Shown here: positions 5,900 through 63,371 of the stretch, one piece after another
Layout of the letters: each line of letters starts with the position of its first letter
How positions within the stretch are numbered: position 1 is the first letter of the stretch
Assembly (NCBI RefSeq): GCF_019059575.1
Contig: NW_024881615.1
Span: 930,001 to 994,000 of the forward strand
Length of the DNA stretch: 64,000 nt
Reading direction: 5' to 3'
Source of the DNA: Amphibalanus amphitrite
Taxonomy: Eukaryota; Arthropoda; Thecostraca; Balanomorpha; Balanidae
Program-made: the position numbers and the translations under genes
Notes under the pieces: model-generated
Told to the model about the DNA's origin: nothing
Database searches by the model: none
Seen by the model: only the letters and a program-made list of their open reading frames with translations

Positions 5900-6575
5900 G
5901 GTCCTGGAACGTAGAGGCCGCCGTCGGCGTTTGGATCAGTCAGTTGCACCAGTGGGAATTAAACTGCTTCACTCTCAGCGTAAAAATGCAAATGGCTTCA
6001 CCATCAGCGTTATATTACTGGGAACGGCTGGTGCCCTTTGCGCTCTAAAAGCACAAAATACCGAAAGTACCTTCTAGGTAAATGCAAAGTTTTTAAGAGT
6101 ATTCTCTGGGCAAATTTGAGGCAATCGCTGGTCACTGATGCTGCTCGAGCAAAACTTATTTTGAAGTGAAAGCAGCTTGCTTTACTTACCTTGAAGTGAT
6201 GTGGAGAAAGCCAGTATGGATTTTACCTAGCAACTGATTTACAAGTAATACAGGAGCAATCTGATTTTTGCTTTAATTTTATGAAGCAACGTGTAATTTA
6301 GAAAAGTTCACATGTTACCATCAACCCTTTTGATAAAATTATCGACAAATAAAAATGCGCAAAGCTCCTCAAACGTCTTCCCTCTTGTGGTCCCTTTCTA
6401 GATCGCGTGCTTTTTACTTCTTCTATCCTCCGCAATAGCATTACTGCTACGCTTTATGCTACAATTTTACAAATGCCTTTTCAGTTTCAAGATCGCCTAT
6501 GTCTACTTCTTTGGCTCAACTGCATAAAACAAAGGTTTTCGAATGAAATGAGGCATTGCGATGATGACACATATA
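5900..6575. other. Intergenic DNA between PKA exon and the Ig-domain gene
   Basis: No supported gene. The right part is the presumed 3' flank of the minus-strand Lachesin/DIP-like gene. Confidence 0.4.
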
Positions 6576-6882: not shown

Positions 6883-16313
<9,431 letters not shown>

Positions 16314-22120: not shown

Positions 22121-22159
22121 CCCCCTATTTAGGCGAATAGGATCTCTTTTCACCTTGTC

Positions 22160-24776
22160 ATGTCTCTCTTGCTCGGTTGCATATATCGAAGTCCCTCATC
22201 CTCTGCTGAAGACAACATGCATGATATAGATTCATTATTCAAGTTGGCTACCAGCTCACACTTCTCTCATGTGGTAATAACAGGGGACTTCAACCTCCCC
22301 CAGATCAACTGGAGAACGGGCCTTTCCTTGGCTCCCCCCTCACACTGCTCTCATTCTTTTATTGACCTGATCCATGACTCCTTCTTATACCAGCACGTTG
22401 ACAGGCCTACAAGGTGTCGAGTTGGTGAAACGCCGAACACCCTGGACCTCATCATGTCTACAGAAGAAGGGATGGTCAAGAACCTTGAGTACTTACCTGG
22501 TCTGGGGTCTAGTGACCACATCATTCTTCAATTCCAACTGGCCTGCTACTCGCCTCATGCTGAATCATCAGAACCACGCTACAACCTCAATAAGGGAGAC
22601 TACGAACGGCTGAATCGGTTGATCTCTCAGGTTAATTGGATGCAATGTGATACTATGGATGTTGAAGGCATGTACAGATTCATCAAGGTCAAGTTATCTG
22701 AACTCTCACAAGCCTGCATTCCTCTAGCCAAACCGAAGCAGCATAACAAAAACATATATATTAACCGAGAGGCCATGAAGCTGAAGAAACAAAAAAGAAC
22801 ATTGTGGCTGAAGTACAGGCTCACCAGAGACCCACTGGACTACGTGCGATTTACACGCAAGCGAAACAGACTGCGTACGCTAACCAGGAACCTACGGGCG
22901 ACCTTTGAGAGGCGTCTGGTGGCAGACATGAGGACAAACGTGAAGGGCTTCTGGCGCTACACAGGATCTCGACTTCACACAAAGATGCGAGTGGAGGACC
23001 TGCAAGCAGAAGATGGATCCATGGTTCGTGGGAGCCATGACAAGGCCAACCTACTGAACCACTATTTCCACAGCATCTTCACATCTGAAGACCCGGCCCT
23101 GCCAACACCACCACCTGCCTTCACGGGTCCCTCGCTAGACACCATAGACGTTAGCCCAAGGGCGGTCAGAGACAAGCTGCTGAAGCTCAAACCCGACAGC
23201 TCCCCAGGACCAGATGGATTGCACCCAAGGATACTGCGTGAGACGGCGACCATTATGGCTGAACACTGGGCACAGCTCTTCCGCCACTCCCTGGCCAGTG
23301 CTACACTACCCACCGACTGGTGCAAGGACGACATAGTCCCCATCTTCAAGAAGGGTCCTAAGCACTACCCGGCCAACTACAGACCCGTAACACTGACTGC
23401 TGTTCCTTGCAAAGTTTTCGAAACCATTGATCCGTGACCAGATGATGGAGTACCTGACCTCTACTGAGCAGCTAAGCAGTAAGCAGCATGGGTTCAGACG
23501 GAAGAAGTCCTGTGTCACTCAACTTCTTGAGACCCTGGACGATTGGACTCGCGATCTCGACGAAGGTAAACCTGTCGACGCCCTGTACCTCGATTTTAGC
23601 AAGGCTTTTAACTCGGTGCCCCACCAGCGACTACTGCTCAAGCTACACTCGTACGGCATCAAGGGCCAACTCCTGGAATGGCTGAGGGCCTTTCTGATTG
23701 ATCGGCAGCAGCGCGTAACCGTCAATGGTACGAAATGAGAGTGGGTATCTGTCACCAGTGGAGTGCCTCAGGGAACCGTGTTGGGGCCCCTCTTGTTCCT
23801 GGTGTACATAAATGACTTACCTGACCACGTGTCGTCGACCATCAAGATGTTTGCCGACGACGCGAAGATGTACAGAAGTGTTAGCCAGGTTTCAGACGCC
23901 CAAACACTCCAGAGAGACCTGGATGCACTCATTGAGTGGTCGGATCGTTGGCAACTCCCCTTCAATCGCGCTAAATGCGTTTCCCTGCACTTGGGTCGCC
24001 AAGACGACAGGCAGGGGTATCACATGGGAGGCACCGAGCTCGTACAAGTTTTGGTGGAGAAGGATCTGGGGGTGCAGATGGACCACCAGCTGAAATTCCG
24101 AGAGCAAGCGGCGGCCGCCATCTCCAAGGCTTCCCACATCCTAGCAGTCATTCGGCGATCCTTCTGCGTCATCGACGAAACCACGTTGCCACTGCTCTTC
24201 CGGACAATGGTCCGCCCCCATCTGGAGTATGCCAACGCGGTCTGGGGGCCATTCAACAGAGCGGACCAGAAGCGGATTGAAAGGGTCCAAAGGAGAGCCA
24301 CAAAGCTCGTCGCCAGCATCCGCGAACTCCCCTACGAGGCGAGGCTCCAGACACTCTGCCGTCTCTCTACTACCGTCGTCGCCGCGGCGATATGATAACG
24401 GTCTACCAAGTGCTCCACGGGGGAGTTGACGTTGACGCGTCCAAGTTCTTTACGCGAGCAGCGACGTCCCGGACCCGTGGACACACATGGAAGCTTTCCA
24501 AGTCCAGGACCAACTCCAGAGTCAGACGAAACGCGTTCAGCGTGAGAGTCGTGAACGACTGGAATTCGCTGCCATCGACTGTTGTTGATGCGCCTTCAGT
24601 CGACTCATTCAAGGCCAGGCTCGACAGTCACTGGGCACGCTTCATGCACATGACTCACCCATACGACTGAAACATAACACAATACAGACAAACAGCTCGA
24701 CAAGACCGGATCCCTGAGGCCAAGTGGCCTTTCTAAATTCCGCGATTTATAAGTATAAGTATAAGTATAAGTATGT
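22160..24776 (+). pseudogene. CR1/Jockey-like LINE, 5'-truncated and broken
   Basis: A non-LTR retrotransposon ORF2 remnant. The endonuclease tail includes YRSPSSS, GDFNLPQINW and SSDHI near 22180-22520. The reverse transcriptase has SPGPDGLHPRIL, DFSKAFNSVPHQ, SGVPQGTVLGPLLFLVYIND and the catalytic FADD near 23850. It is broken by a frame change near 23425, a TGA at 23736-23738 where relatives have an open codon, and a second frame change near 24385 within a CG-rich run. The 5' end is cut inside the endonuclease. The 3' end is an (ATAAGT)n tail at about 24749-24773, typical of CR1-group elements that end in microsatellites. I have not restored the reading frame. Confidence 0.88.
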
Positions 24777-30908: not shown

Positions 30909-32525
30909 TTATTTATTTATTTATTTATTTCACATTACAGACATATCCGTGGAAACACGGCTATTCTATGTCCAAGTCGTTGTGCATATACAAATCGAAT
31001 GGGATATGACAACAGTCACCGCAATCATTCACACATTCACCCTCATCACGTGTGCTAACTAGGACAGCTAAGTGGCTCGCTCGCGGTCAAACAAATGCTC
31101 CCTCAGTGCCGGCTTGAATCGAGCCTGACTGAGAGCGCGCAGGTCCGCCGGCAGCTCGTTGTACCCTGACACCGCAGAGTACAGAAAACGGCGACGTCCG
31201 GACTCTGACCTGACAGTGGGGGTCACAAGCATGTCATTGTACCTGGTATCCCGCCCGTGTACACTCTGCCGGGTGACTAGACAGGTGGCGAACTGCTGCG
31301 GCTCTGACGTGGCCAGCATTTTGTTCACCAGCACGATGGATTGGTACCTGAACAAGCTCTCGGTGTTAAGCCAGCCGAGTTCGTTGATAACATCGCTCAC
31401 CCGATCATACTTCCTACGGCCTGAGACGACTCGTGCAGCAAACCTAACCAGCTTTTGAAGTCGTTTGCGCTGGGTTACATTGCTGGCACCGTAAACGGAC
31501 AGACAGTACCTAATAATCGACAAGACGAGCCCCTGCACCAACGTTACCATGACTGTCGCTGGGAGACTGTGTCTACTGTGACTCAGGCCACACAAGGTGC
31601 CGGTGCACCGCCGCACCACGTCACTGGTATGCGTCACAAACGACATGTCATTGTCAAACCATACTCCCAGGTTCATGACAGTGTCAGAGCTGTTGATGGT
31701 GGAGCCGCAGAAGTTGATGGTAATGGGAGGCAGACGACGAGTCATCTCCGGCGTGCCGAGGACGATCAGCTGAGTTTTGGCAGCGTTTAACTTGAGGCCG
31801 TTCTTGCCATACCAGTTCGACAGAACTGATAGACTGCCTTCCAGAGACCGTTTCAGCTGAACAATGTCTCTCGGCTGTCCGGAAACGTACAGTTGGACGT
31901 CGTCCGCGTAGGCGATGATGCCGGTGGAGTTGTCGGTGTAGAGCGGCAGGTCATTAGCATACACATTGTGCAACAATGGCCCGAGCGATGAACCCTGGTA
32001 GGTACCGATAGGGTTTAGTAGCGGCTGTGAGAGCGTGTGAGCACGAGACGGTCCGGTAGAGTGAAGCTGCACACGCTGATAATGATTGGCAAGGTAACTC
32101 CGGAACCAGCGGGTATCTACACCGTAGAGCTCGAGCTTACGCAGAAGCGAGCTGTGTGGGATGCAGTCGAAGCAGCGCGAGCAGTCCAACAGATAGAGAA
32201 CGGTGACTTCACGCTGGTCCATGCTCCGGAAAACATGATCGGTCAGGGTGAGTAGAGCAGTGTCCGTGGAGTGGTTGGTTCTGAAGCCGTGCTGGTTTGG
32301 AGAAAACAGGTGATGAGAAGAGAAATAGGAATAAAGCTGTTCAGAGACGACGCGCTCGGTGATTTTACCAATAGTGGTGAGAATGGAGATAGGCCGGTAG
32401 CTGCTAAAGTCGTCGGATTTTGATGCCTTGGGAATAGGATGGACCAGCGTAAGTTTCCACGAGTCAGGTACAGTATGTGAAGCCAGGCTAGTTGACAATA
32501 TCGGACGATAAAAAGAAAAGTGCAA
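30909..32525 (-). mobile_element. Non-LTR retrotransposon fragment with open reverse transcriptase frame
   Basis: On -, 32525 to 31068 is an uninterrupted 485-codon frame. Landmarks are DDFSSYRPISIL, NQHGFRTNHSTDTALL, DCSRCFDCIPHSSLL, IAYADDVQLYVSG (catalytic YADD) and the thumb/C-terminal region NAAKTQLIVLG. The usual PQG motif is TYQGSSLGPLL, a divergent form. The endonuclease half is missing, so it is 5'-truncated. The 3' end is an (ATAA)n tail at about 30909-30930. An open frame suggests a younger insertion than the LINE at 22-24 kb. Confidence 0.87.
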
Positions 32526-38844: not shown

Positions 38845-40294
38845 TCAGAGCAGGTTAATGAACTGCCTGGCCACCATGTTCAGGTCGTAGACGACCTGGA
38901 AAAGAGTCGTGTCGCCGCGGCTTTCGCCGAGCGCCAGCAGGTCCGACTCGAGTTTGCGGATCTGGCCGTAGGATGGCTCTGGCAGCGCCGGCCGGCGGCT
39001 GTGAGACACCCCCAGCACCGTCTCTAGCTGCCGCCTCAGGTACGCCGCCTTCTCGCCCAGACCCATAGCCGATTCTGCAAAGACGAAACACGGCATTCGA
39101 AGCCAGTCAGTTTGGAAAAAGTTTCGCTCTAAGGACTCTAATGAAGATGCGGTCCTCGCATTCCAATGAGCACAACGTAGAATGGTGTGCAAAAAAACTT
39201 ACATATTTCATGAGAGTGACGAATGGAATTTCAAACACGAACTGAGGTTGCGGAAAAAATATTGTTTGCGTATTTTGCACACTCACAACAGTGTAGTAGC
39301 TTAGGGTTGCCCGAAGTCTGAGTTTGCTATTAGCGGAAATTGGCAATATGATTTAACCTTTTTTTTAGTCTGCCCGAAAGGATGCACACAGGAAGCAGAG
39401 TGTCCTCAACACAGCAGGCTCCGTTCGCCTCTCCTGCTGCTAATAGGTCGCGTAGTCTCACCGGCGGGCAGGACCGGCACGCCGATGTCGCGGAGCAGGT
39501 TGAACACGTCGTCCACGATGGCCACCAGGCCGTCGGTGACTGACACGCGGCCGTGCTCGATGTCCTCGATGTGCTGCTGTATGGTGGCCAGGTCGTCCTC
39601 CAGGCGCGCCACCGTGTACGGGTCAAGGCCGTATTGCGGTCCGTACACCTCCAGCGCGCCGTCCAGGGTGGCGAGCAGGGCCTCCAGCGCCGCGTCCAGC
39701 GCCGTCGGCGTCTCAGACGCTGCAGACAGGGCGGCCATGTGTCAGACGGACACGGGATGGAGGCATCCAAATGTTGGGGAAGAAACTGGAGGTTTTAAAT
39801 GGGTCCTTCCACCACCAAACTTATTTTATTAAGTACCTAGGTCCTTCCACTAAGTAATATTTATTCCACTGCCACCAAACCCAATTACTTGATTGATAAA
39901 ATACAAGACCCTCTACCATAAATATTGATGAGGATTTTAATAAACAGTAAGTAAAAAATGGCCCAAACATGAAAGTAAAAACGTTACGGGCTACGGCTAA
40001 TAATTGTTGCGCGCTGTCGACGGCCGACGCCCTGTCACGTACTGGGAAACTGCGGATCGATGCCGAAGTCGCCGAGCAGCTTCATGACGTCTCGGACGAT
40101 GCGCTCTGCGCCCGTCTGCGCCTCAATGTCGCGGTGCTCGATCCCTTCGATGGTCGCTATCAGCTCGTGCATGTCCAGCTGGGCCTGGAGAATCTGCGCC
40201 GGCGTCATCCCGGCCTCCGGTCCCAGGGCGACAACCAGCGCGTCAAAAACCTCCTCCAGCCGCCGCAGCAGGTCGTCCAGCGACTCCGCCGAGT
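38845..40294 (-). CDS. Short modular helical-repeat gene, 3' part (two modules plus terminal exon)
   Basis: Function unknown. Three phase-compatible exons: 40043-40294 (84-residue module, ...LDDLLRRLEEVFDAL... and ending DFGIDPQFP), 39462-39719 (86-residue module, SETPTALDAALEALLATL, DIEHGRVSVTDGLVAIVDDV), and the terminal exon 38845-39074 (77 codons with stop; a degenerate module with YGQIRKLESDLLALGE and ending ARQFINLL). All introns are phase 1. The modules are homologous to those of the giant gene at 49.9-63.4 kb but much more diverged. No first exon or signal peptide was found to the right of 40294, so the 5' end is missing from the model. It could be a separate paralogue or an alternative 3' end of the giant gene. 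Confidence 0.72.
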
Positions 40295-41116
40295 CTGCAA
40301 AACAATAGTTGACAATAAGTGGAGGCGTTGAACCATGCATTGGTTGGAGATTGGGTGCATGCTTCCAGTGATTGTCAAGATCAAAGAGGCATTTAGGTAC
40401 TGCCACAAAAATGAACAATGACAGGTATTTGTGCTCAATGAAAAGAACTGGTTCATGGTTGGAGGTTGCCTAAAGGTCAACTATTTCTCAGCATTGCCAT
40501 TTTTAGTAGCTATCTTGATTAGTAGCTCCTGCACAGTGCTCAAGCTGTATTGCTGACATGTGAGAAACTGAAAACTTTTTTTGTGGTATTAAAGTGCTCA
40601 AGTTAGCATGTTTGGGCATTGTGATCCTTGCCTCACTTGATCACCATGTTCGTTAGGTTCCCACCATAACTACAACTGCTATATCCTCAACTGCTCTGAT
40701 TGTTTGAATGTGTGGGGTGATGTAGGTTGTGGAAAAAGTAATTCCTTATAGTCACCAAATGCTCCCCTCCTCCCCCATTTCAGCTGAAGCTGAGGTAACT
40801 TGGGCCACATTTGACACACTTGTTAGATTTAGATTCATTCTGTATGCATTTCCACACCAATTTTATCTCTAATCCCCCCCCCTGAGAATTCCGCAAAGAA
40901 GTTACCTGTAAATATGCTCATTTTGGATCATGGGCCTCGTACATGACATGTAACAAGCTGGTATCAGGGAGTTTTCATTATTTCAACTCATTAAGTTCGG
41001 GGAATTTTTAACCCCACTTTGCACACATACTGTACCTGACACTTCCATGACTTCTTGACCAGTTTCCTGAGAAAAATATGTTTGTGTTTTGAGGATTATT
41101 ACATGCAAATGTGATG
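40295..41116. other. AT-rich intron or intergenic DNA
   Basis: Nothing recognisable. Confidence 0.4.
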
Positions 41117-45713: not shown

Positions 45714-47676
45714 CACTGGCGGATCCAGGCTTGCGTTTTGGGGGGGGGGCTAACTCATGCGGAGCCAAACCTAGGGTACCCCCAAATCCTGTTTTCTCAT
45801 CTGATTTAGGCCACTTATTTTTCGTCACAGCTCTGACACTATTAATTTTTTTAACTAAAAAGAAAAATATATAAATGGTAGTCCACCCGACCCATGCCTT
45901 TATATTACTTTGTGAACACTTACCATTGCTTTTGTCGACCAGTTAACCCGCTTCGAGTCAGTTCTTGGGTCCCTTTGCGGGCCGGGAGGTGGTAAAACAC
46001 CCCCAGTCTAACTCGGCTCCTGGGCCACGCACTGATTGAACTATGTTTCATTATCGTTTGGGGGAGGGGCAAACGGGCCACTTTAGGCCTCTGGGAAAGG
46101 GGCATGGCCCTAAATGCCCCCTCCCTGGATCCGCCAGTGTAAGACACCATTGGAGCTGCAGTTGGGTACCTCAGACGTCAGGGTACGCCCTCAGATGTAT
46201 AGGACTTGCGTGGAGACCTCTTATGCTGTAGTGGACTGAAAGGACCCAAAGGAGCCCGTCTAGGGCTCCCGGAGAATGGAGATAGACGTGGGCCCTCAGG
46301 AGCCCGCCAGAGCCCCCAATGAGGGATAAGTGAGGGATACCAAGTGCCTGCAATTGCATATTGCATAAGCCATAACGCCTTTACAAATCAATATATTATG
46401 TATCAGTGGCAGATACAAGGGGGGCCACATGGGTCATGACCCCCCTTGGTGCCCGGGGGCACCACCGGCCAAGCAGGGGCACCACCGGCCTAGCAGGAGC
46501 ACCACCAGCCCGCCAGGGGCACCACAGGCCTAGCAAGGGCACCACGGGCCTGTGACGGGTGGGTCCCACAGGCTTGTCAGGGACACCCCAGGTCTGTCAG
46601 GGACACCAGAGACCTGCCAGGGGCACCACCGGCCTCGCAGGGGCACCATGGGCCTGTTAGGGGCACCAGAGGCCTAGCAGGGGTACCACAGGCCTTACAG
46701 GGGCACCACCGGCCTTGCAGGGGCACCAGAGGCCTAGCAGGGGCACCACAGTCCTGTCAGGGCCCAGGGGCACCAGGGGCCTAGCAGGGGCACCACAGGC
46801 CTGCCAGGGGCACCACCGGTCTAGCCTTTACAAATCAATATATTATGTATCAGTGGCAGATCCAAGGGGGGCCACATGGGTCATGACCCCCCTTGGTGCC
46901 CGGGTGGTGCCTGTCAGGGGCACCACCGGCCTAGCAGGGGCACCACCAGCCCGCCAGGGGCACCACAGGCCTAGCAAGGGCACCACGGGCCTGTGAGGGG
47001 CCCACAGGCTTGTCAGGGGCACCCCAGGTCTGTCAGGGACACCAGAGACCTGCCAGGGGCACCACCGGCCTCGCAGGGGCACCGTGGTCCTGCCAGGGGC
47101 CCTGCCGGCCTCGCAGGCATCACGGCATCACGCAGGGGCACCTTGGGCCTGTCGGGGACATCACGGGCCTGTTGGGGGCGCTTTAGGCTTGTCAGGGGCA
47201 CCGCAGTCCTGTCAGGTCCCAGGGGCATCAGCAGCCTAGCAGGGGCACCCTAGGCCCGCCAGAGCCACCACAGGCCTGCCAGGGTCCAGGGGCACCACAG
47301 GCCTAGCAAGGGCACCATGGACCTGTCAGGGGCACCTCAGGCTCCCGTGCCCCCCCCCCCCCCCTGGATCGGCCAGTGATGCCACACCACGCGAAACACC
47401 GCCAACTACCAGCTGCCGCGCCATAAACACGTGCCAACAACAGTCTTTTTTTAAGGTCGACTCCTCTCGCGCAACTTTTGACTGACCCTCACTGCTACCA
47501 TATTGCTTCCATATTATGCTGTGGAAAGCTTTACTTCACCAAGTGGCTAAAAACCTCCATCAAGGTATATTTTCTTAGCATTTTTTTCGGACGTTTTGGG
47601 GAGGGGGGCAAACCGGCCACTTTACGCCTTTGGGGGGGGGGGCATGGCCCCCGTGGCCCCCCTGGATCCGCCAGTG
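45714..47676. mobile_element. hAT-type element with perfect 8-bp target duplication
   Basis: CACTGGCGGATCCAGG at 45714 and CCTGGATCCGCCAGTG ending 47676 are perfect 16-bp inverted ends. TACCACCC stands directly outside both (45706-45713, 47677-47684); 8-bp duplications are typical of hAT. Extra copies of the same ends lie inside (46125-46140, 46405, 46850, 47378), so related copies are nested or internally duplicated. No transposase. Confidence 0.82.
46440..47345 (+). repeat. 20-bp minisatellite inside the hAT-type element
   Basis: About 40 imperfect units of GGGGCACCACCGGCCTAGCA. A direct duplication is also present: the sequence from 46381 (ATCAATATATTATGTATCAG) recurs at about 46827. The array gives open frames that look like Gly/Thr/His/Arg-rich protein, an artefact. 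Confidence 0.9.
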
Positions 47677-49890: not shown

Positions 49891-52363
49891 TCACGCGCGC
49901 ACGGGCACTACGACGGCGAGCTGGTGGAACACGGCTCCCAGGTGATGCAGGTCGGCGCGGACGGTGGCGCGGGCGGCCAGCGGCAGGGAGGCCACCAGGC
50001 CCGTCAGCGGCCGCCGCAGCTCGGCCAGCCGGGCGACCAGGCTCAGGTGTGCTGCGGCACAGACACCCAGAGGTTGGCGGCAGGGCGCGGCAAGCGTCAC
50101 ACGGTCTCAGTAAGGCACAGCTTGATCATCCTGCACCTCCTCTTTGATGGTGGAATTTTGGTGGGAAATGCTTCGTCCATGTCTTGGATAACACTTTAGG
50201 CAGGGTTTTGATGGACTTCAATTTTTAAGACCAAGATGCTGAAGAATTCTTTGGGTAGTTACTCCATATTCATTTTGCAATCACTGCCTGCCTTTTTTCA
50301 CCGTTTTGGCACGACAGTTTTAACAATGTTAAATATTTTCACGTGAATGATAAAAGGAAGCTTTAATTCTCCCTACAAATGCATTATGCAAACCATAGGT
50401 TCATTTGATGTGTCAAATATCACCCTAATCTATATTCTTTTTGAAAGGTCCTAATTTCTAAAATAGTTCAGTGGCTCGTGTGCCCATGAAATACCGGAAC
50501 TGTCCATGAACCTCCTTGGTCTCGATTGGAGCCCTTCGTTGTGTTTCGAGTTTCTTTACCTCATATCACTTCTCGGCTCCAGAAATTTTCATAATTGAGC
50601 CTTGCTAGGCAAGCATGTCCGTTTCACTCACCATGCCGTTTATCCCGTTTACCCACTCCAATACTCACCGGCTTCAGGGCTGAGCACGGGCAGACCGAAG
50701 TCCTTGAGGATGTTGAAGATATCCACGATGATTTTCTCGAGGCCGCTGTCAATGTCGATGTGTCCGTGCTCGATGGCCTCGATGTCCTTGATGAGTGTGT
50801 CGATGTCGGCCTCGGCCTGCTGGACCTGGGCGTCGGTCAGGCCAAGGATGGGTCCCAGGGTGTTCAGCAGAGTGTTCAGCATGCTCTCCAGCTGCGCCAG
50901 CAGACCGTCCAGGTCGGTCGGCGTGTCGTCGGCTGCGAACACACAAAATCGGTAAACCTCACGTCGGTGCAAGAATATAAAGAGAAATGGAACCAGTTTC
51001 GAGAAGCTCGCATTCAATCATTCGAATTGCGTCGCTTCTGCTTCTGTAGTGTCATATCGGACCAGCGCTTACTGGGGAGAGTATCGTCGATGCCGAGGGC
51101 CTTGAGGATCTCGATGAGGTCGATGACGATGTCCTCCACGCCGGTGGACACGTCCACGGTGCCGTGCTCCAGCGCCTCCACGTCGGCCACGAACTTGTCG
51201 AAGTTGGTGACCACGCCGGCGATCTGTTCGTCAGTGAGTCCGAACAGCGGCCCGAGCACGGGCAGGTACTGGTCCACGATAGCCTGCAGCTCCTCCAGCA
51301 GCTGGTCCAGCGTTGACGGCGTGTCCGCTGTGAACAGCCGGAGAGGAACGTGGGGTTCGTGCGCCTCCGGACCACTGAACGCAAGGCGTTCTTAACCTTT
51401 TCGTAACTTAGTTATGTGATTAAATTATTTGCCAATGACATTATGTACCGTTGTAATTCATGGGAGGCGTCAATTGTCAGGCACTACTATTTTATCCCAG
51501 CATCCCTGGACCATGGGTCCTAACGGCAGCATTAATTCGTTAGCGAACTGCGAACCCCATTGGACTGAGCTGCAAATGTGTGTGCGCTTGCACGTACTGG
51601 TGAGTCCGCCCTTGCGCTGGCTGGTGGGCACTCCGAAGTCGCCGAGAATGACCAGCAGATCGGTGAGGATGTTCTCCAGACCGCGGTCGACATCGATGCG
51701 ACCGTCGCCCAGATCGCGGATGTCGTTGATAAGAGTATGGATGTCGGCCTCGACCTGCTTCGTCGCGTCGTAGTCGAGACCGATGAAGGGCCCCACGATG
51801 TCGAGCACGGCGTTCAGTCCGTTCTCGAGCCAGAACAGCACCTCGTCGAGGGTGGTCGGCACGTCCGTGGCTGGCGAACCAGGTGACATTGTCGACATCC
51901 ATGCGTCACGTTTGCGCTACATATATGTTAAGAACACTAGCAAAGCGCTAAAAATGATAATTTAATGAATACAGCGTAGTTTTCTTAGGAATTAGAAGTG
52001 GTTGAAGGTAATTTCCCAGCATATTTCACGTTGATTATTTAGCCAACGTCGTCTTTGAAGATAATTTTACTTGTTAACATGCCACTAAACGACCGGTTAT
52101 GTGGAACTCACAGGGGAGGGTGACGTCGACGCCGAACGCCTCCAGAACGCGCAGAATGTCAATGCAGATATCGATGACACCAGTGGCGATCTCGATGGTG
52201 CCGTGCTCCATGCCCTTAACGTCAGCGACGAACTTGTCGAAGTTCTCGATGATGGCCTGCGACTGGGCCCAAGTGAGATCCGTCGCGATGGCAATGATGG
52301 GCAGGTAAGTGTCCACGATGTGCTGCAGCTCGTCCAGAAGCATGTCGATGATCGTTGGAATCG
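49891..52363 (-). CDS. Giant gene block 3: diverged modules 19-22 and terminal exon
   Basis: Exons B 52112-52363 (252 nt), A 51598-51870 (273), B 51073-51327 (255), A 50669-50932 (264), terminal 49891-50051. These keep the alternation but have diverged: module 19 has TDLTWAQSQAIIENFDKFVA, module 20 has GLDYDATKQVEADIHTLIND, module 22 ends FGLPVLSPEA. The terminal exon codes 53 residues (VARLAELRRPLTGLVASLPL... ending VVVPVRA), Arg/Ala-rich and unlike the acidic modules. Only here do lengths drift, so the array tail seems to escape homogenisation. Confidence 0.83.
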
Positions 52364-55300
52364 CTGAAATCAAACAAAAATGTTGGCTTATCGGCAAAGT
52401 TCGGTACCTATACATGATGGGGGCGATTTATATCAATAGTATCATTGATCCCGACTTTATCTGTTTTTGATAAGTAGTTTATCTGTTCTTCTCCAAGGCA
52501 ATCATAATTGTATTTTGCTTTTCTACTTTTATGTGCCTTACCCTTACGTAGAACTATAGGTAGACGCATCAGAATTTGAAGTATACAATTATAGTTTGAC
52601 AGTTCAACTTCAATACTCTTCTGAAGACGTGGAATACGTCTTGACACTAACCATCATCACATACTAATATACATACTTGTGGCCTCCACCTCGGATTTCC
52701 TCTCGGACTGGACGCCGAAGTCGTGAAGGATCTTGACGATGTCGGCGAGCACCTTCTCCAGGCCGCCGTCGACGTCAGTCTCTCCGTGCTCGATGGCCTC
52801 GATGTCGAGGATGAGCGTGTCGATGTCAGCCTCGATCTGCTGAATCTGCTCATCGGTCAGGCCCAGCAGCGGTCCGAGGGTGTCGAGCAGAGCGTCCAGG
52901 GCAGCCTCGAGCTCCTTTAGCAGGGCGTCAAACTCGGTCGGAGTCTCGTCGGCTGAAGACAGAGAACAAGAGTCAGGGTCCACCATTGATTGAATTTTAG
53001 TAGCAAACGGAAAGATGTTCGTACTTTGTGAACTCTTTGCGCAGTCGTATTCGTTTTTGAATGACTTACTGGGCGCGGTCCAATCGATGCCGAGGGCTTT
53101 GAGGATCTCGATGATGTCGGTGATCATGGCCTCGAGTCCGTCGGTGACGTCCACCTGTCCGTGCTCGAGAGCCTCGGTGTCGGCGACAAACTTGTCGACG
53201 TTCTGGACGACGCCCTGGATCTGTTCGTCGGTGAGACCGAGCACCGGTCCGATGATGGGCAGGTAGGTGTCGACGAGAGCCTGGATCTCCTCCAGCAGCA
53301 CGTCGATCACAGACTTGGGCGCTGGGGGCGGTGAAAATTGACGTCACACATGGATCAGTGTTCCAAAACAGTGTGGCGAATGTAAAACGCTGAACGCTGC
53401 GTTGTCATGTTCTCTTTCACGAAACTATTTGTAGGAGCATTTAATTGGAGCTTGTATTCTTCTCACAGCTCTAGAATCGATTTGAATTGTTACGGCTGTA
53501 ACCGTTGTCACTCATCGAAGAGCGGTTGGCCACTCATATTCTCCTTTGCTTTTTGAAGTTTACATGCTGGATATATAGATTGTTGTGATGAAAGGGTGCA
53601 ACATCTTGAAATCTTACCCTCACAAATGCTTTTTAACAAGGTTTTTGCATTGTCCTCAGCTCTTATTTACTGTGCTTAATCGTACGACAATTAAGACGAC
53701 ATATTTTGTTGGGTTTCTTACATACCAAAAGCTACGGCATGACTTTCTTTTTAGAACTATGAACTTACTGGTGACTTCAACCTCGGATTTCCTCTCGGAC
53801 TGGACGCCGAAGTCGTGAAGGATCTTGACGATGTCGGCGAGCACCTTCTCCAGGCCGCCATCGACGTCAATCTCTCCGTGCTCGATGGCCTCGATGTCGA
53901 GGATGAGCGTGTCGATGTCAGCCTCGATCTGCTGAATCTGCTCATCGGTCAGGCCCAGCAGCGGTCCGAGGGTGTCGAGCAGAGCGTCCAGGGCAGCCTC
54001 GAGCTCCTTCAGCAGGGCGTCAAACTCGGTCGGAGTCTCGTCGGCTGAAGACAGAGAACAAGAGTTAGGTTCCACCAATGGTTGATTTATGGTAGCAAAA
54101 GGAAAGATGTTCGTACTTTGTGAACACTTTCGCGCAGTCGTATTCATTTTTAGATAACTTACTGGGCGCGGTCCAGTCGATGCCGAGGGCCTTGAGGATC
54201 TCAATGATGTCGGTGATCATGGCCTCGAGTCCGTCGGTGACGTCCACCTGTCCGTGCTCGAGAGCCTCGGTGTCGGCGACAAACTTGTCGACGTTCTGGA
54301 CGACGCCCTGGATCTGTTCGTCGGTAAGACCGAGCACCGGTCCGATGATGGGCAGGTAGGTGTCGACGAGAGCCTGGATCTCCTCCAGCAGCACGTCGAT
54401 CACAGATTTGGGCGCTGTGGGCGGTGCAAATTGACGTCACGCATGTGCCATGCAGTAAAGTTTGAGGACTATAAGTGCTGAATCTTTGATTGTTATTTCT
54501 ATTTGTCGGCGGGTGTTTTTCTTGCTAACTATACTCGGAAGCATTTACAGGTTATATTCTTCTTAAAAATCGGTCGGTAACTGGTAATAATTGAACTAAG
54601 CAGTTACCAACTCCTCTTGCTATCAAGGAACGGTTTACCAGAACGTGTTCACGTTTTTCTAGTTTCTTTTCTAGTCAGGCATGGATTGATGCGTCAAACC
54701 GTTCAATGCCATGCAATCTTGCACTTAGAACACACTTTGGATAAGTGCTATGCAAATGCCTTATTCTCTTCACTCAGAAAACACTTTGCGAACATTTTTG
54801 AATAAGGACTCAATTGAGTGCTGAAACAAGCCTCAAATGTGTGATTTTAAAAACGGTTTCAGTAAGACTTCCTTTTAGGGCTCATGTACTTTCAGCCCGA
54901 ATACTGGATTCAAGTGAGACCGAAATTGGGGATCGGGCTGAAAACTGGTTTCATAGTGAGACTAATTTTAAAAGCTTGACACCGATAATGGGTACTGACT
55001 GAGATCTGTTTCTGCGATTAATGGTTTTGCTCAGAAAGTATTCTCAAAATGTGTGGTCTGTTTTTAATAGGGGACATTAGCCCGAAAACTGGTCTCTGAG
55101 ACCGAAAATGGAGAAACTGTTTTCCCAGTGTTCTTTTGTTTAAGGCGTATGCTAAATCATAAAGCTATCGAATCGCATTATCAGTTGACAGCTTGGTTGA
55201 CAGTTTGGGCTGCTAAAGACCAAGAGACGTTACAATTTATTCGAAGCAATGAACTTACTGGTGACTTCAACCTCGGATTTCCTCTCGGACTGGACGCCGA

Positions 55301-58300
55301 AGTCGTGAAGGATCTTGACGATGTCGGCGAGCACCTTCTCCAGGCCGCCGTCGACGTCAATCTCTCCGTGCTCGATGGCCTCGATGTCGAGGATGAGCGT
55401 GTCGATGTCAGCCTCGATCTGCTGAATCTGCTCATCGGTCAGGCCCAGCAGCGGTCCGAGGGTGTCGAGCAGAGCGTCCAGGGCAGCCTCGAGCTCCTTC
55501 AGCAGGGCGTCAAACTCGGTCGGAGTCTCGTCGGCTGAAGACAGAGAACAAGAGTCAGGGTCCATCATAATTGAATTACAAAGGTTAGTGAAAGGAAAGA
55601 CCTTTCTCACTTTTTGAACATTTTCGCGCGGTCGTATTCGTTTTTGAATGACTTACTGGGCGCGGTCCAGTCGATGCCGAGGGCCTTGAGGATCTCGATG
55701 ATGTCGGTGATCATAGCCTCGAGTCCGTCGGTGACGTCCACCTGTCCGTGCTCGAGAGCCTCGGTGTCGGCGACAAACTTGTCGACGTTCTGGACGACGC
55801 CCTGGATCTGTTCGTCGGTGAGACCGAGCACCGGTCCGATGATGGGCAGGTAGGTGTCGACGAGAGCCTGGATCTCCTCCAGCAGCACGTCGATCACAGA
55901 CTTCGGCGCTGGGGGCGGCACAAATTAACGTCAACCATGGATCAATGTTCCAAAACAGTATGGCGAATGTAAAACGCTGAACGACTCGTTGTCCTGTTCT
56001 CTTTCACTAAACTATTTGTGGGAGCATTTAACTAGAGTCTGCATTCTTCTCACAGCTCTAGAATCGATTTAAATTGTTACGGCTGTAACCGTTGTCACTC
56101 ACTCGGAGAACGGCTTGGCCACTCATGTTCTCTTTTGCTTTCTTTTTTGAAGTTTACATACTGGATATAGATTATTGTGCTGAAACGGTTCAACACCTTG
56201 AAATCTTACGCTCACAAATGTTTTTCAACCAGGCTTGTTCATCGTCCTCAGCTCTTTTTATTGTGCTTAATCGTATGACAATTAAGACGACATATTTTGT
56301 TGGATATCTTACATACCAAAAGCTGCGGCATGTCTTTCTTTTAAAAACTATGGACTTACTGGTGACTTCAACTTCGGATTTCCTCTCGGACTGGACGCCG
56401 AAGTCGTGAAGGATCTTGACGATGTCGGCGAGCACCTTCTCCAGGCCGCCGTCGACGTCAATCTCTCCGTGCTCGATGGCCTCGATGTCGAGGATGAGCG
56501 TGTCGATGTCAGCCTCGATCTGCTGAATCTGCTCATCGGTCAGGCCCAGCAGCGGTCCGAGGGTGTCGAGCAGAGCGTCCAGGGCAGCCTCGAGCTCCTT
56601 CAGCAGGGCGTCAAACTCGGTCGGAGTCTCGTCGGCTGAAGACAGAGAACAAGAGTGAGGTTCAACCAATGATTGAATTATGGTAGCAAACGAAAAGATG
56701 CCCGTATGTGGACGCCTTCGCGCGGTCATATTCGTTTTTAAATGACTTACTGGGCGCGGTCCAGTCGATGCCGAGGGCCTTGAGGATCTCGATGATGTCG
56801 GTGATCATGGCCTCGAGTCCGTCGGTGACGTCCACCTGTCCGTGCTCGAGAGCCTCGGTGTCGGCGACAAACTTGTCGACGTTCTGGACGACGCCCTGGA
56901 TCTGTTCGTCGGTAAGACCGAGCACCGGTCCGATGATGGGCAGGTAGGTGTCGACGAGAGCCTGGATCTCCTCCAGCAGCACGTCGATCACAGACTTGGG
57001 CGCTGGGGGCGGTGAAAATTGACGTCACGCATGTGCCATGCAGTAACGTTTGAGGACTATAAGTGCTGAATCTTTGGTTGTTATTTCTATTTGTCGGCGG
57101 GTGGGTGTTTCTCTTGCTAACTCTACTAGGAAGCATTTACAGGTTATATTCTTCTTAAAAATCGGTCGGTAACTAGTAAGAATTGAACTAAGCAGTTACC
57201 AACTCCTTTCGCTATCGAGGAACGGATTAACAGAACGTGTTTGCGTTTTTTTTTTTTAGTTTCTTTTCTAGTCAGGCATGGATTGATGTGTCAAACCGTT
57301 CAATGCCATGCAATCCTGCACTTAGAACACACTTTGGATAAGTGCTATGCAAATGCCTCATTCTCTTCTTTTGTTTAAGGTGTATGCTAAATCATAAAGC
57401 TATCGAATCACATTATCAGTTGACAGCTTGGTTGAAAGTTTGGGCTGCTAAAGACCAAGAGATGTCACAATTTATTCGTTGCAATGAACTTACTGGTGAC
57501 TTCAACCTCGGATTTCCTCTCGGACTGGACGCCGAAGTCGTGAAGGATCTTGACGATGTCGGCGAGCACCTTCTCTAAGCCGCCGTCGACGTCAATCTCT
57601 CCGTGCTCGATGGCCTCGATGTCGAGGATGAGCGTGTCGATGTCAGCCTCGATCTGCTGAATCTGCTCATCGGTCAGGCCCAGCAGCGGTCCGAGGGTGT
57701 CGAGCAGAGCGTCCAGGGCAGCCTCGAGCTCCTTCAGCAGGGCGTCAAACTCGGTCGGAGTCTCGTCGGCTGAAGACAGAGAACAAGAGTGAGGTTCCAC
57801 CAATGATTGAATTATGGTAGCAAACGAAAGGATGCCCGTATGTGGACGCCTTCGCGCGGTCATATTCGTTTTTAAATGACTTACTGGGCGCGGTCCAGTC
57901 GATGCCGAGGGCCTTGAGGATCTCGATAATGTCGGTAATCATGGCCTCGAGTCCGTCGGTGACGTCCACCTGTCCGTGCTCGAGAGCCTCGGTGTCGGCG
58001 ACAAACTTGTCGACGTTCTGGACGACGCCCTGGATCTGTTCGTCGGTGAGACCGAGCACCGGTCCGATGATGGGCAGGTAGGTGTCGACGAGAGCCTGGA
58101 TCTCCTCCAGCAGCACGTCGATCACAGACTTGGGCGCTGTGGAAAAACAATTGGGCATAAGAGTCTCGGTATCTGCTCTGTGTGAGAACATTCAGCTTGA
58201 CTTTCCACAGACAATGGAAAATTCATCTGTGTTTCTCTGCCCATGAGCTATGTTTTCAATGATTTTGATTGATACGTAACAAGTAAAAAGTTCTTCGCTA

Positions 58301-61300
58301 TGCATATGCCAGTGTCTTGTCTAGTTATATATATATTTAGCCTCTATTACTTATATGCCTTTTCCACGAATCTGTATTGAGCAGTCGACTATCGTGTAAC
58401 ACGGGCCGTGACATAGCCTCTTTCACATGGAGTTTTACTCTGTTATCATTAGATCAATACTCACTGGTGGCCTCCACATCGAGGCTCCTCGTTGAGTGGA
58501 CTCCGAAGTCGTGGAGGATCTTGATGAGGTCCATGATGATGGCCTCCAGGCCTCCGTCGAGGTCAATCTCTCCGTGCTCCACGGCCTCGAGGTCTTTGAT
58601 GAGCTGGTCGATGTCGGCCTCGATGATTTGAACCTGTTCATCGGTCAGGCCCAGCAGCGGTCCGAGGGTGTCGAGCAGGGCGTCCAGGGCTGCCTCCAGA
58701 TCAGCCAGGAGGCCGTCGAATGGCGTCGGGGTCTCGTCGGCTGTAAAATGGATAATTTGGTTGCTTTTGTTGTGCTTACAGTTTTTGTATGCCGTGCCCT
58801 AGGAGAGCTGCCAATGGTTGATTGTTATGTATGAATGCATTGTTAGCCAGATTTACATGATTTTGCGCTACTCTGCTTTATTTTCTTATCGGAAATTCTG
58901 TGCATTAACAGTTTGATTTACATTGTCTCCTTTCAGCTCCAATGTTTTGCTAGATGATCTGATGGATACCTACCTACCAATGTCATGATGACCCGTAGGA
59001 TTGCCTTGCTACAGATCGATGTTTATCTGCCAAGGTCTGCTTAGATGGGCAAGGGTTCAATATAATAATGGCATAGTATGCGCCTTATTCTACATCGCTT
59101 ATTACCCAGTTTTCAGATTCACATCGTGATTACACATGCGCACGTAGTGTACATCGATGTAGTACTATGATGTACATCGATGATGTACACAATGTAGTGT
59201 ATATCGTGATTCTCCCTTTGTGTTGTTGAAATAAAGCTACAAACTGCAATATTTCCCACCACATACCGGAAACGAGCTAGCGTTTCTTTAATGTTACGTT
59301 AGTTCCGTGATGTAATCAGGCTTGTTCTTTTGATCCGATCTGATTGAAATCCGTGTCTGCGTAACGGCGGGAGACGGAGCGTTTCGTACCTTACCTACCT
59401 TGAATCTCGGAGGTTCGCTGGATGAACTGTGTGCTAGATCAATATTGTCACTGCAAAACAGCAACATCCATAAGATACATTGCACCAACACTTACTGGGC
59501 GCAGTCCAGTCGATTCCCAGAATCCTGAGGATCTCGAGGATGTCGGTGATCATGGCGGCCAGTCCGTCGGTGACGTCCACCTGTCCGTGCTCCAGAGCCT
59601 CGGTGTCGGCGACAAACTTGTCGACCTGCCTGGTGATCTTGATGGCTTCCAGCTCAGTGAGGCCGAAGAGAGGTCCGAGGAGGGGCAGCCACAGGTCGAT
59701 GAGCGCTTGGAACTCCTCCAGCAGCACGTCCAGAGTAGATTTGGGGGCTACGGAAACGGCAGGAAGCCTTGAGAATTTTAGTGATCTGGTTAAATACGAT
59801 AGTTAGATGTCATAGGTATTGTTGTTTCATAAGCTGACTGATGTTGCCTGAACAGCTGCTGGTGAAATTCGTTCGAGTAGCGAAACAATGTTTCAGATAT
59901 TTTTAAGCTACATGCATCTACGAACGCAATGTTGTCATAGGGATAAGGTTTACAACGTTCGCGGATTCTTTTCAAGATAACGAATGTAGTGAAGTCTTCT
60001 AGCTGCACTGTTATTGACTCACTGGTGGCCTCCACTTGGGGGCTCCTCGTTGAGTGGACTCCGAAGTCGTGGAGGATCTTGATGAGGTCCATGATGATGG
60101 CCTCCAGGCCTCCGTCGACGTCAATCTCTCCGTGCTCCACGGCCTCGAGGTCCTTGATGAGCTGGTCGATGTCGGCCTCGATGATTTGAACCTGCTCATC
60201 GGTCAGGCCCAGCAGCGGTCCGAGGGTGTCGAGCAGGGCGTCCAGGGCTGCCTCCAGATCAGCCAGCAGGCCGTCGAACGGCGTCGGGGTCTCGTCGGCT
60301 GTAAAATGGATAACTGAACGCTTGTATCGAAGTCTAGTACGTTTTGCGTGAAAGATGCTTGAGTGTTGAGTAAGATATACATAATCCAATGCTACACTTA
60401 CGTTGGTTTCATTTCGCTGCGTAGGCGTTCCAGAGCAGTTTTGTGTAGAGCAGCTGTATTGGGATGGGAAACCCTACATACCAGGGTCTCGAAGAATCCC
60501 CTTTCGCTTAGCCCGATCTTCACGATTCCAAAGTGTCCCATATGCGTCTCTGCGGACCCTGAACTAGAAGCGCTACGCACTTCTAGTTCTCGTCAAAATT
60601 GGTTGCTAGAAATTGCCTTACATCATCACTTACTGGGCGCAGTCCAGTCGATTCCCAGGATCCTGAGGATCTCGAGGATGTCGTTGATCATGGCGGCCAG
60701 TCCATCGGTGACGTCCACCTGTCCGTGCTCGAGAGCCTCGGTGTCGGCGACAAACTTGTCGACCTGCCTGGTGATCTTGATGGCTTCCAGCTCAGTGAGG
60801 CCGAAGAGAGGTCCGATGAGGGGCAGCCACAGGTCGATAAGCGCTTGGAACTCCTCCAGCAGCACGTCCAGGGTAGATTTGGGGGCTACGGAAACGGCAG
60901 GAAGCCTTGAATCGTCCGATACTGTCATGTTTGACCATGTAACTGATGTCAAAAATTGTTATTTCCTTTTTATGAAAGAACAATCAACAAGTAGTGGTCC
61001 TTGAAATGAATTTAGATCGGGAAGCGATTAAGATGTTCTCACCATTTTGTGCGTTATTTAGTTGAAATGCTGTAAGTTTTGACAAAGGAACTAAGATACT
61101 CGTTGAATCTTGTTCAAGCATCTAGAAGGGTTGAATATTTTATTTAGTGACGGTATCGACTCACTGGTGGCCTCCACGTCGAGTTTGTTCGGCGAGTAGA
61201 CGCCGAAGTCGTGCAGGATCTTGATGAGGTCCTGAAGGATCAGCTCCAGGCCGCTGTCGACGTCGATCTCTCCGTGCTCAATGGATTCGAAGTCCTTGAT

Positions 61301-63371
61301 GAGGGCGTCGATATCTCCCTCGATGGTCTTGATTTGTTCGGCGGTGAGTCCCAGGAGCGGTCCGAGAATGTCCAGGAAGGCGTTGAGGGCGGCCTCCAGC
61401 TCCGCCAGCAGCGCGTCGAACTCGGTCGGGGTCTCGTCCGCTGGAGGGATTGTAGGAGACGGTGAAGCACTGTCATCATCGCGAACCTAGGGAGTTGCTT
61501 GGAACACTTACCTGCCAGTGCTGAACACCCAGTGTCGCGGATGTATGCTTCTAGGTATGCTGATAATTAGCAGACCCCGGAAAGTGTTGCTTGTTTTGTA
61601 ACGCTCAGTGCATCCCGCTTGTAAAAGGTATCCTTTTGTCATCAATCTCCAGTAACAATAGGCATCTGTTGTATAACCACACTTTTTGTGATGGTCCTCT
61701 ACTCTTATACGCATCGACATTAATTGAAATGATTGAAATACTGTTTCCTTTGTTGCTTCTTGATGACTAGTATTGAAGGATTTGGCATCATGTCACCTTA
61801 CCTGTGAAGGCCTAAGCCCTAATAAGTAAGTTACCTGTATTGTTATCAGGAGTAAAGCATTTCTCGTTGAAGATGCCACTTACTGGGCGCAGTCCAGTCG
61901 ATTCCCAGAATCCTGAGTATCTCGAGGATGTCGGTGATCATTGCGGCCAGTCCGTCGGTGACGTCCACTTGTCCGTGCTCGAGAGCCTCGGTGTCGGCGA
62001 CAAACTTGTCGACCTGCCTGGTGATCTTGATGGCTTCCAGCTCAGTGAGGCCGAAGAGAGGTCCGATGAGGGGCAGCCACAGGTCGATAAGCGCTTGGAA
62101 CTCCTCCAGCAGCACGTCCGGAGTAGATTTGGGGGCTACGGAAACGGCAGGAAGCCTTGAATGTTTTAGTGATCTGGTTAAATACGATAATTACATGACA
62201 TATTGTTGCTTCATAAGCTGACTGATGTTGCCTGAACAGCTGCTGGTGAATTTCGTTCGAGTAGCGAAACAATGTTTCAGATATTTTTAAGCTACATGCA
62301 TCTACGAACGCAATGTTGTCATAGGGATAAGGTTTACAACATTCGCGGATTCTTTTCAAGATAACGAATGTAGTGAAGTCTTCTAGCTTGCACTGTTATT
62401 GACTCACTGGTGGCCTCCACTTCGAGGCTCCTCGTTGAGTGGACTCCGAAGTCGTGGAGGATCTTGATGAGGTCCATGATGATGGCCTCAAGGCCTCCGT
62501 CGAGGTCAATCTCTCCGTGCTCCACGGCCTCGAGGTCCTTGATGAGCTGGTCGATGTCGGCCTCGATGATTTGAACCTGCTCATCGGTCAGGCCCAGCAG
62601 CGGTCCGAGGGTGTCCAGGAAGGCGTTGAGGGCGGCCTCCAGCTCCGCCAGCAGCGCGTCGAACTCGGTCGGGGTCTCGTCCGCTGGAGGGATTGTAGGA
62701 GACGGTGAAGCACTGTCATCATCGCGAACCTAGGGATTTGCTTGGAACACTTACCTGCCAGTGCTGAACACCCAGTGTCGCGGATGTGTGCTTCTAGGTA
62801 TGCTGATAATTAGCAGACCCCGGAAAGTGTTGCCTGTTTTGTAACGCTCAGTGCATCCCGCTTGTAAAAGGTATCCTTTTGTCATCAATCTCCAGTAACG
62901 ATAGGCATCTGTTGTATAACCACACTTTTTGTGATGGTCCTCTACTCTTATACGCATCGGCACTAATTGAAATTATTGAAATACTGTTTCCTTTGTTGCT
63001 TCTTGATGACTATTATCGAAGGAGTTGGCATCATGTCTCCTTACCTGTGAGGACTAATAAGTAAGTTGGTCTGTATTGTTATCAGGAGTAAGGCATTTCT
63101 CGTTGAAGATGCCACTTACTGGGGGCAGTCCAGTCGATTCCCAGGATCCTGAGGATCTCGAGGATGTCGGTGATCATGGCGGCCAGTCCGTCGGTGACGT
63201 CCACCTGTCCGTGCTCGAGAGCCTCGGTGTCGGCGACAAACTTGTCCACCTGCCTGGTGATCTTGATGGCTTCCAGCTCAGTGAGGCCGAAGAGAGGTCC
63301 GAGGAGGGGCAGCCACAGGTCGATGAGCGCTTGGAACTCCTCCAGCAGCACGTCCAGAGTAGATTTAGGGG
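49891..63371 (-). CDS. Giant modular helical-repeat protein, 5' end beyond window (22 modules plus terminal exon)
   Basis: I do not recognise this family. In the window, 23 exons give one continuous phase-consistent frame of 1985 residues to a TGA at 49891. Each of 22 exons is exactly one module, and type B (84 residues) and type A (92 residues) alternate strictly. Type B core: VLLEEIQALVDTYLPIIGPV, GLTDEQIQGVVQNVDKFVAD, ALEHGQVDVTDGLEAMITDI. Type A core: TPTEFDALLKELEAALDALL, GLTDEQIQQIEADIDTLI, AIEHGEIDVDGGLEKVLADI. The modules look like three amphipathic acidic helices with almost no Cys or Trp, so a secreted or structural coiled protein is possible but not shown. Every intron is phase 1. 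The open 5' end means signal peptide, total length and promoter are unseen. Exon coordinates are in the three block entries. Confidence 0.85.
52677..58136 (-). CDS. Giant gene block 2: modules 9-18 (subfamily 1, homogenised)
   Basis: Exons B 57885-58136, A 57494-57769, B 56751-57002, A 56360-56635, B 55657-55908, A 55259-55534, B 54163-54414, A 53769-54044, B 53070-53321, A 52677-52952. Proteins of the five B exons, and of the five A exons, are almost identical. B-to-A introns are short (115-122 nt). A-to-B introns fall into two alternating sequence types, so the repeating genomic unit is a four-exon block. Confidence 0.87.
54771..55130. mobile_element. 360-bp insertion in one intron of the giant gene
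   Basis: Present in the intron between 54414 and 55259, absent from the duplicate intron at 57003-57493. Ends CACTCAGAAAAC and (inverted) CACTGGGAAAAC look like short terminal inverted repeats. Confidence 0.7.
58465..63371 (-). CDS. Giant gene block 1: modules 1-8 (subfamily 2)
   Basis: Exons B 63120-63371, A 62408-62683, B 61884-62135, A 61165-61440, B 60634-60885, A 60023-60298, B 59496-59747, A 58465-58740. All B exons are 252 nt and all A exons 276 nt. B modules read LLEEFQALIDLWLPL and GLTELEAIKITRQVDKFVAD; A modules read LIKDLEAVEHGEID and end HDFGVHSTR, except 61165-61440 which ends HDFGVYSPNKLDVEAT. A-to-B introns are a near-constant 272-279 nt; B-to-A introns vary from 335 to 755 nt. 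Exon 62408-62683 is a chimera. Confidence 0.85.

Follow-up and report, generated by a model that had tools for sequence, protein, structure and literature searches.

The 64,000-nucleotide window analyzed here (C118:930001-994000, in an 807.55-Mb Amphibalanus amphitrite assembly made up of 2644 contigs) carries on its minus strand the array of a giant gene, whose product is modelled as one module, predicted to be helical, repeated in two versions, A and B. Stop-to-stop open reading frames and a motif scan located 22 module exons in the window, from 63371 down to 50669, in strict alternation (11 A and 11 B). Ten of the 11 A exons are 252 nucleotides (nt) long and the other is 255 nt, while nine of the 11 B exons are 276 nt and the others 273 or 264 nt. 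Every module exon is of phase 1-1, beginning and ending one base into a codon, with AG before it and GT after it, and the joined modules form a single open frame. An earlier reading made from the letters alone (the sequence-only reading) had described a giant protein of 22 consecutive module exons of 84-92 residues in strict A-B alternation, with one frame of 1985 residues. The positions, sizes and order were borne out across all 22 exons, and the exon lengths sum to the same figure within rounding. It had also called the modules free of Cys, which was incorrect, as module 52363-52112 contains one.

The same reading had counted at least 22 modules and pointed to the right of the window for the start and the signal peptide. 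Extension in that direction revealed one more A-B pair, bringing the array on C118 to 24 modules, together with an N-terminal cap (N-cap) exon, a helix exon and a signal-peptide-like first exon. The exons of the giant gene are given below in window positions; values above 64000 continue the same numbering to the right of the window.

67357-67294, right of window, first coding exon, hydrophobic start (MRLIAVAFLAVLVSSA...), signal-peptide-like
66609-66493, right of window, helix exon, 117 nt
66043-65807, right of window, N-cap exon, degenerate
65236-64985, right of window, module exon A, first pair
64867-64592, right of window, module exon B, first pair
63120..63371, minus, module exon A (pair 2), 84 residues, phase 1-1, AG/GT borders
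62408..62683, minus, module exon B (pair 2), 92 residues
61884..62135, minus, module exon A (pair 3)
61165..61440, minus, module exon B (pair 3)
60634..60885, minus, module exon A (pair 4)
60023..60298, minus, module exon B (pair 4)
59496..59747, minus, module exon A (pair 5)
58465..58740, minus, module exon B (pair 5)
57885..58136, minus, module exon A (pair 6)
57494..57769, minus, module exon B (pair 6)
56751..57002, minus, module exon A (pair 7)
56360..56635, minus, module exon B (pair 7)
55657..55908, minus, module exon A (pair 8)
55259..55534, minus, module exon B (pair 8)
54163..54414, minus, module exon A (pair 9)
53769..54044, minus, module exon B (pair 9)
53070..53321, minus, module exon A (pair 10)
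52677..52952, minus, module exon B (pair 10)
52112..52363, minus, module exon A (pair 11), divergent, carries the only Cys
51598..51870, minus, module exon B (pair 11), divergent
51073..51327, minus, module exon A (pair 12), divergent
50669..50932, minus, module exon B (pair 12), divergent, the module folded with AlphaFold2
49891..50051, minus, C-terminal cap exon, resembling a degenerate half module, stop TGA

A TATA-like TATATA box lies 55 bases 5' of the ATG. Joining 27 exons without the helix exon gave an open frame of 2261 residues, and with the 117 nt of the helix exon the full model comprises 28 exons, 24 modules and about 2300 residues. All internal exons are of phase 1-1, and therefore gain or loss of an exon causes no frameshift. 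Both terminal caps align as degenerate modules. Splicing of the array exons into one product is predicted from the sequence. The sequence-only reading had tentatively put forward a lineage-specific secreted, structural or lipid-binding protein. Secretion is likewise predicted, supported by a first exon that is hydrophobic, judged by hydropathy, in both the giant gene and the compact paralogue described below. A profile hidden Markov model trained on the N-cap and the 24 modules gave 24 domain matches in the window at E ≤ 1e-3, of which 22 are training modules and are counted by construction; the other two, at 40469 and 39741, are modules outside the training set. No match was obtained in the reversed window or in one shuffled window. 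Upstream of the giant gene there is a divergently transcribed gene start (L009, about 6250-6454, plus strand), which is signal-peptide-like and looks thioredoxin-like by eye (EQHDYVAVFWCE); the 50 residues by themselves had no support in Pfam.

A second haplotype of the giant gene was found on contig C418. Its 22 modules are all open, and the product counts 2085 residues when the helix exon, itself 99.1% identical to that of C118, is left out. The two haplotypes hence differ by one A-B pair (24 modules vs 22; 12 pairs vs 11). The upstream flanks of C118 and C418 are 99.7-99.8% identical over 14.6 and 3.8 kb (68797-87244 in window-style numbering), the identity falls to 95-96% in the last 4 kb upstream of the array (64470-67986), and pieces of the array are 90-98% identical, some of them pairing non-corresponding copies. 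Misassembly can occur in tandem arrays, and together with the fall in identity this could point to an assembly artefact or a decaying locus. We consider this very improbable, because the gene plan agrees on two contigs, all 46 of the 46 modules of both haplotypes are open with AG/GT borders, the alleles differ mainly at synonymous sites, and the compact gene repeats the same plan elsewhere.

Across the 11 exon pairs of the two alleles that align one to one, there were 21 synonymous and 7 nonsynonymous differences, giving a ratio of nonsynonymous to synonymous polymorphism (pN/pS) of 0.11. Allelic identity was 98.9% in exons and 97.0% in eight introns, gaps not counted. Recent copies within the array were each compared to one reference copy for the ratio of nonsynonymous to synonymous substitution rates (dN/dS). 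Type-1 A copies showed 3-5 synonymous and 0-1 nonsynonymous changes (dN/dS 0-0.08), type-2 A copies 5-8 and 0-2 (dN/dS 0-0.10), and type-1 B copies 4-9 and 2-8 (dN/dS 0.10-0.26). Since both the allelic pN/pS and the dN/dS of recent copies are low, these codon comparisons show that purifying selection acts on the module sequence. A haemolymph, reproductive or immune protein whose module number varies through conflict or neutral drift would fit the haplotype difference in copy number (24 vs 22) and the homogenised repeats, but the modules are under purifying selection with no sign of diversifying change, and such a protein appears quite improbable. A 3.1-kb stretch at 48787-45656 is present on C118 and almost missing from C418; it includes degenerate 20-base G+C-rich tandem arrays at 46456-47342.

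The genome was searched with one A-B pair as the query, the match counts being lower bounds. At least 64 matches were obtained, among which 46 belong to the giant gene on both haplotypes, four to a compact gene (at C418:148.7-150.9 kb and on C1867), and four to two further modules (near 40 kb of the window and on C418). The last ten, on C163 and C281, are antisense readings of low complexity. The module family was found at three loci in this search. The frames on C163 and C281 (L057 1-9999 and L058 3-9998) stay open for over 3300 residues, contain Thr-Glu-Glu-Pro repeats (EEPLKVTEEP) and may represent one giant low-complexity protein in its two haplotypes.

In the compact gene the coding exons measure 64, 117, 240, 252, 264 and 62 nt, for a product of 332 residues with an isoelectric point (pI) of 4.47 and no Cys. 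It contains one A and one B module in the same exon plan as the giant gene; the first exon and the helix exon are equal in length in the two genes (64 and 117 nt), and the hydrophobic start and the caps are similar. All six of its exons align gap-free to C1867 with 97-100% identity, and an AATAAA lies 3' of its stop. When 50 modules were placed in a tree, rooted at the midpoint and shown without support values, the first split separated A from B. The compact A was nested within the giant A modules, adjoining type 2. The compact B fell among the B modules, as did one of the downstream modules, and the other downstream module was also on the B side. Since the A/B split came first and the compact modules lie within both groups, the A-B duplex predates the separation of the compact and giant genes. 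The compact gene may represent the ancestral form or a giant that became shorter, contraction being compatible with its nesting. Over 135 nt of the N-cap (L009 2736-3065, minus strand, vs L023 6540-6720, plus strand), the compact and giant genes have only 8 differences, whereas divergence between their modules is much greater, a contrast that points to gene conversion of recent date in the N-cap.

The modules downstream of the array, all on the minus strand, are as follows.

40043..40294, minus, extra module exon downstream
39462..39719, minus, extra B-like module exon downstream
38845..39074, minus, terminal module-like exon with stop, beyond the extra modules

No signal-peptide or N-cap exon was found for these modules on either haplotype. 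The giant gene could use them as alternative 3' exons, a reading that their phase fits, or they could be a truncated paralogue. Elsewhere in the window, retroelement fragments lie at 22133-24395 (plus strand) and 31068-32525 (minus strand), with an endonuclease-reverse transcriptase match at 22133-23434 (E 3e-14) and a reverse transcriptase match at 31071-32525 (E 2.5e-31). A perfect AG dinucleotide array of 230 copies (9921-10380) stands beside a minus-strand sequence that is immunoglobulin-like by eye, and an I-set match at 6883-7338 was just under the cut-off.

The composition of the giant protein agreed with the acidic character noted in the sequence-only reading. Its pI is 4.05, with a grand average of hydropathicity (GRAVY) of +0.24 (residues 18-2261), and 474 acidic residues stand against 106 basic ones. 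The 2261-residue chain is 15.7% Leu, 11.4% Asp, 10.0% Ile and 9.6% Glu (Asp plus Glu 21%; Leu, Ile and Val 33.5%), with no N-glycosylation sequon and one Cys in the 24 modules. At the module positions D47 and D68 the residue is invariant among the 24 modules, and D42, E52 and D57 are at least 90% conserved. An acidic matrix protein that binds Ca2+ through the E-H-G-x-x-D-V loop and the Asp and Glu residues, for use in shell, base plate or cuticle, could have such acidity and such conserved positions, and barnacles mineralise their plates. However, no EF-hand family was among the Pfam matches, matches to troponin C in the PDB (E 0.17-0.73 among the matches listed) were at chance level, and the hydrophobic content is above that of typical acidic mineral proteins. 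We consider this role distinctly unlikely.

The structure prediction that had been proposed for an A-B pair gave a confident model for a single module and a poor one for the pair. AlphaFold2 predicted one module (B of pair 12) as a three-helix bundle with a mean predicted local distance difference test score (pLDDT) of 89.3, while the A-B pair model reached a pLDDT of 53.5. Since the two termini of an up-down-up bundle emerge on opposite sides, successive modules could line up like beads along a string or rod, a shape that we infer from the single-module model.

Amphipathic helical modules might also bind lipid or another hydrophobic ligand, singly or as A-B duplexes, as in the cockroach Bla g 1-type or nematode polyprotein allergens, perhaps after the chain is cut between pairs, with the copies raising capacity. 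Predicted secretion, the helical fold, the positive GRAVY, an Ala, Ile, Leu and Val content of 37-45% in the 12 modules tabulated, and the two-module architecture known from Bla g 1 would all suit a carrier of this kind. An RK or KK pair, seen by eye in 7 of the 12 B-module tails, offers a possible cleavage site, but 5 of the 12 have no dibasic pair, no R-x-K/R-R site occurs at the borders between modules, and KK, RR or KR (RK outside that count) is found at just two sites in 2261 residues. Moreover, no allergen family, the Bla g 1 insect allergen repeat included, was among the 20 Pfam families matched by 23 module and cap sequences at E ≤ 1. We consider a lipid carrier unlikely.

The sequence-only reading could not place the protein in any family and held that a strong match to a characterised one would overturn this. 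No consistent match was found in Pfam (the 23 sequences above and the N-terminal region), NCBIfam or the PDB by sequence or by fold, nor did scanning prokaryote genomes with a pattern give one; the fold search with one module (Foldseek) gave a best E of 1.4. Several candidates were rejected. TALE matches in the PDB sequence search came from a stretch of 27 residues and included no domain that was significant, and the troponin C matches in the PDB profile search were those at chance level mentioned above. Spectrin-type three-helix repeats, which have a period of about 106 residues, gave no Pfam match in the 23 sequences and differ from the period of 84-92 here. Membership of the spidroins was rejected as no spidroin family appeared in the Pfam scans of the N-terminal region and the 23 sequences, and membership of CP52/CP100 as the pI is 4.05 against basic values of 9.4-11.0, the modules are shorter, and there is one Cys in 24 modules.

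The explanation we favor, with slightly more doubt than belief, is that the locus encodes a lineage-specific, secreted, very large, modular and polyanionic structural or adhesive protein of barnacles. The signal-like start, the TATA-like box near the ATG, the great length and the homogenised modules fit a bulk extracellular protein, as do the lack of a consistent family match and the small number of loci in the genome. Each exon would encode one three-helix bundle, and an A and a B bundle would form a two-module unit, present once in the compact gene and 12 times in the giant gene (11 on the other haplotype), with length changing through gain or loss of A-B exon pairs. Bulk secretion would then deliver a polymer with a structural or adhesive function outside the cell. 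Its modules, weak one by one but numerous and near-identical, may supply length, multivalency and charge around an aliphatic core, working by analogy with helical-repeat silks. In the barnacle, it might serve as an acidic partner for the basic leucine-rich cement proteins. The tissue and the adhesive or structural role are what we infer.

Several observations weigh against this explanation. No AATAAA was seen by eye within 390 bases 3' of the stop of the giant gene, the A-B pair was modelled poorly, the basic pairs in B-module tails make cleavage into pairs conceivable, and the modules have no silk-like low-complexity sequence. The older module types are less constrained (dN/dS 0.31-0.51), and so is the comparison of compact with giant modules (0.37-0.72); on codon evidence, these values show weaker constraint or a change of role. 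Known leucine-rich cement proteins are basic, with pI 10.0-11.0 in an excerpt of one report (PMC5099703), and CP100k has pI 9.4-9.7 in calcareous-based species in an excerpt of another (PMC8561864). An acidic cement protein is already known, since an excerpt on Megabalanus rosa cp20k gives a pI of 4.95 (PMC3661472), and acidity alone is thus not new for a cement protein.

Cp20k-like sequences share the genome with the giant gene, which points to a barnacle and which we counted in favor of a structural or adhesive barnacle protein. A stretch of M. rosa cp20k, used as the query, matched six places. Three of these lie within 28 kb on C198 (10939-38703; E 4.8e-4, 0.0024 and 0.081; 45-51% identity), and the fourth, at C210:801544 (E 0.081), lies in an open frame with the Cys-x-Cys and HPCYH pattern; the remaining two were weaker (E 3.0 and 7.3). 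At the best locus, no such protein was present among the ATG-started open reading frames. Repeated Cys motifs are described as typical of cp20k in an excerpt of PMC3661472, and an excerpt of PMC8371367 states that a CP20 homologue was not found in Pollicipes pollicipes, in keeping with an acorn barnacle as the source here. The Cys-rich sequences on C198 and C210 (L060-L063) are candidate barnacle cement protein genes.

If expressed as modelled, the giant gene would yield a secreted repeat protein of about 2300 residues outside the named families of the libraries searched. The change in exon-pair number is clear, with one pair in the compact gene and 12 and 11 pairs in the two haplotypes of the giant, and the compact paralogue would be a natural minimal version, with one A and one B, that can be produced and tested. 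If present in cement or cuticle, the giant protein would bring a helical, polyanionic constituent into a material with basic leucine-rich proteins. A bolder proposal, which we consider unlikely, is that it founds a class of its own among animal structural proteins. It would be a silk-like or adhesive polymer of three-helix-bundle duplexes, all-helical, strongly acidic and nearly Cys-free, evolved in barnacles by exon-pair gain and loss, variable in length between the two haplotypes of the assembly, and possibly paired, as the acidic component, with the basic proteins that form the bulk of the cement.

Among known systems, the Bla g 1-type insect allergens resemble the modelled protein in being secreted and helical with two alternating units, but they differ in that the giant protein has no Pfam match to them and three helices per module. 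The Foldseek matches listed included no Bla g 1-type fold, an absence that does not argue against one. Compared with the nematode polyprotein allergens, which have a basic cleavage site between units, the module borders here have no R-x-K/R-R site, but RK or KK stands in 7 of the 12 B tails. The CP34 family, with 193-826 residues in A. amphitrite and a 3230-residue relative in Pollicipes in an excerpt of PMC8371367, is a group of barnacle cement proteins and resembles the present family in the wide spread of its lengths and in counting a giant among its relatives. CP52 and CP100 are likewise aliphatic, leucine-rich and barnacle-restricted, and CP52 is internally repeated; its repeats in M. volcano are 113-129 residues long with one Cys in each, according to an excerpt of PMC7230167. 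The modules of the giant protein differ from them in being shorter (84-92 residues) and nearly Cys-free.

Aciniform and tubuliform spidroins, which are spider silk proteins, resemble the giant protein as modelled in being secreted giants of many near-identical folded helical repeats with little or no Cys. Spidroin repeats stand between non-repetitive terminal domains; the helical repeats and signal-peptide-like start here fit that plan, but the caps align as degenerate modules. Spidroin repeats have about 200 residues and five helices, whereas the module here has 84-92 residues and three helices, is encoded by one exon and is very acidic. Among the Foldseek matches, 9lie, which is a spidroin repeat (E 5.2), and 6r9d, the N-terminal domain of a spidroin (E 5.8), were both at chance level. 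By analogy, the helical-repeat spidroins would nonetheless be the nearest known system in working mode, though not of the same family.

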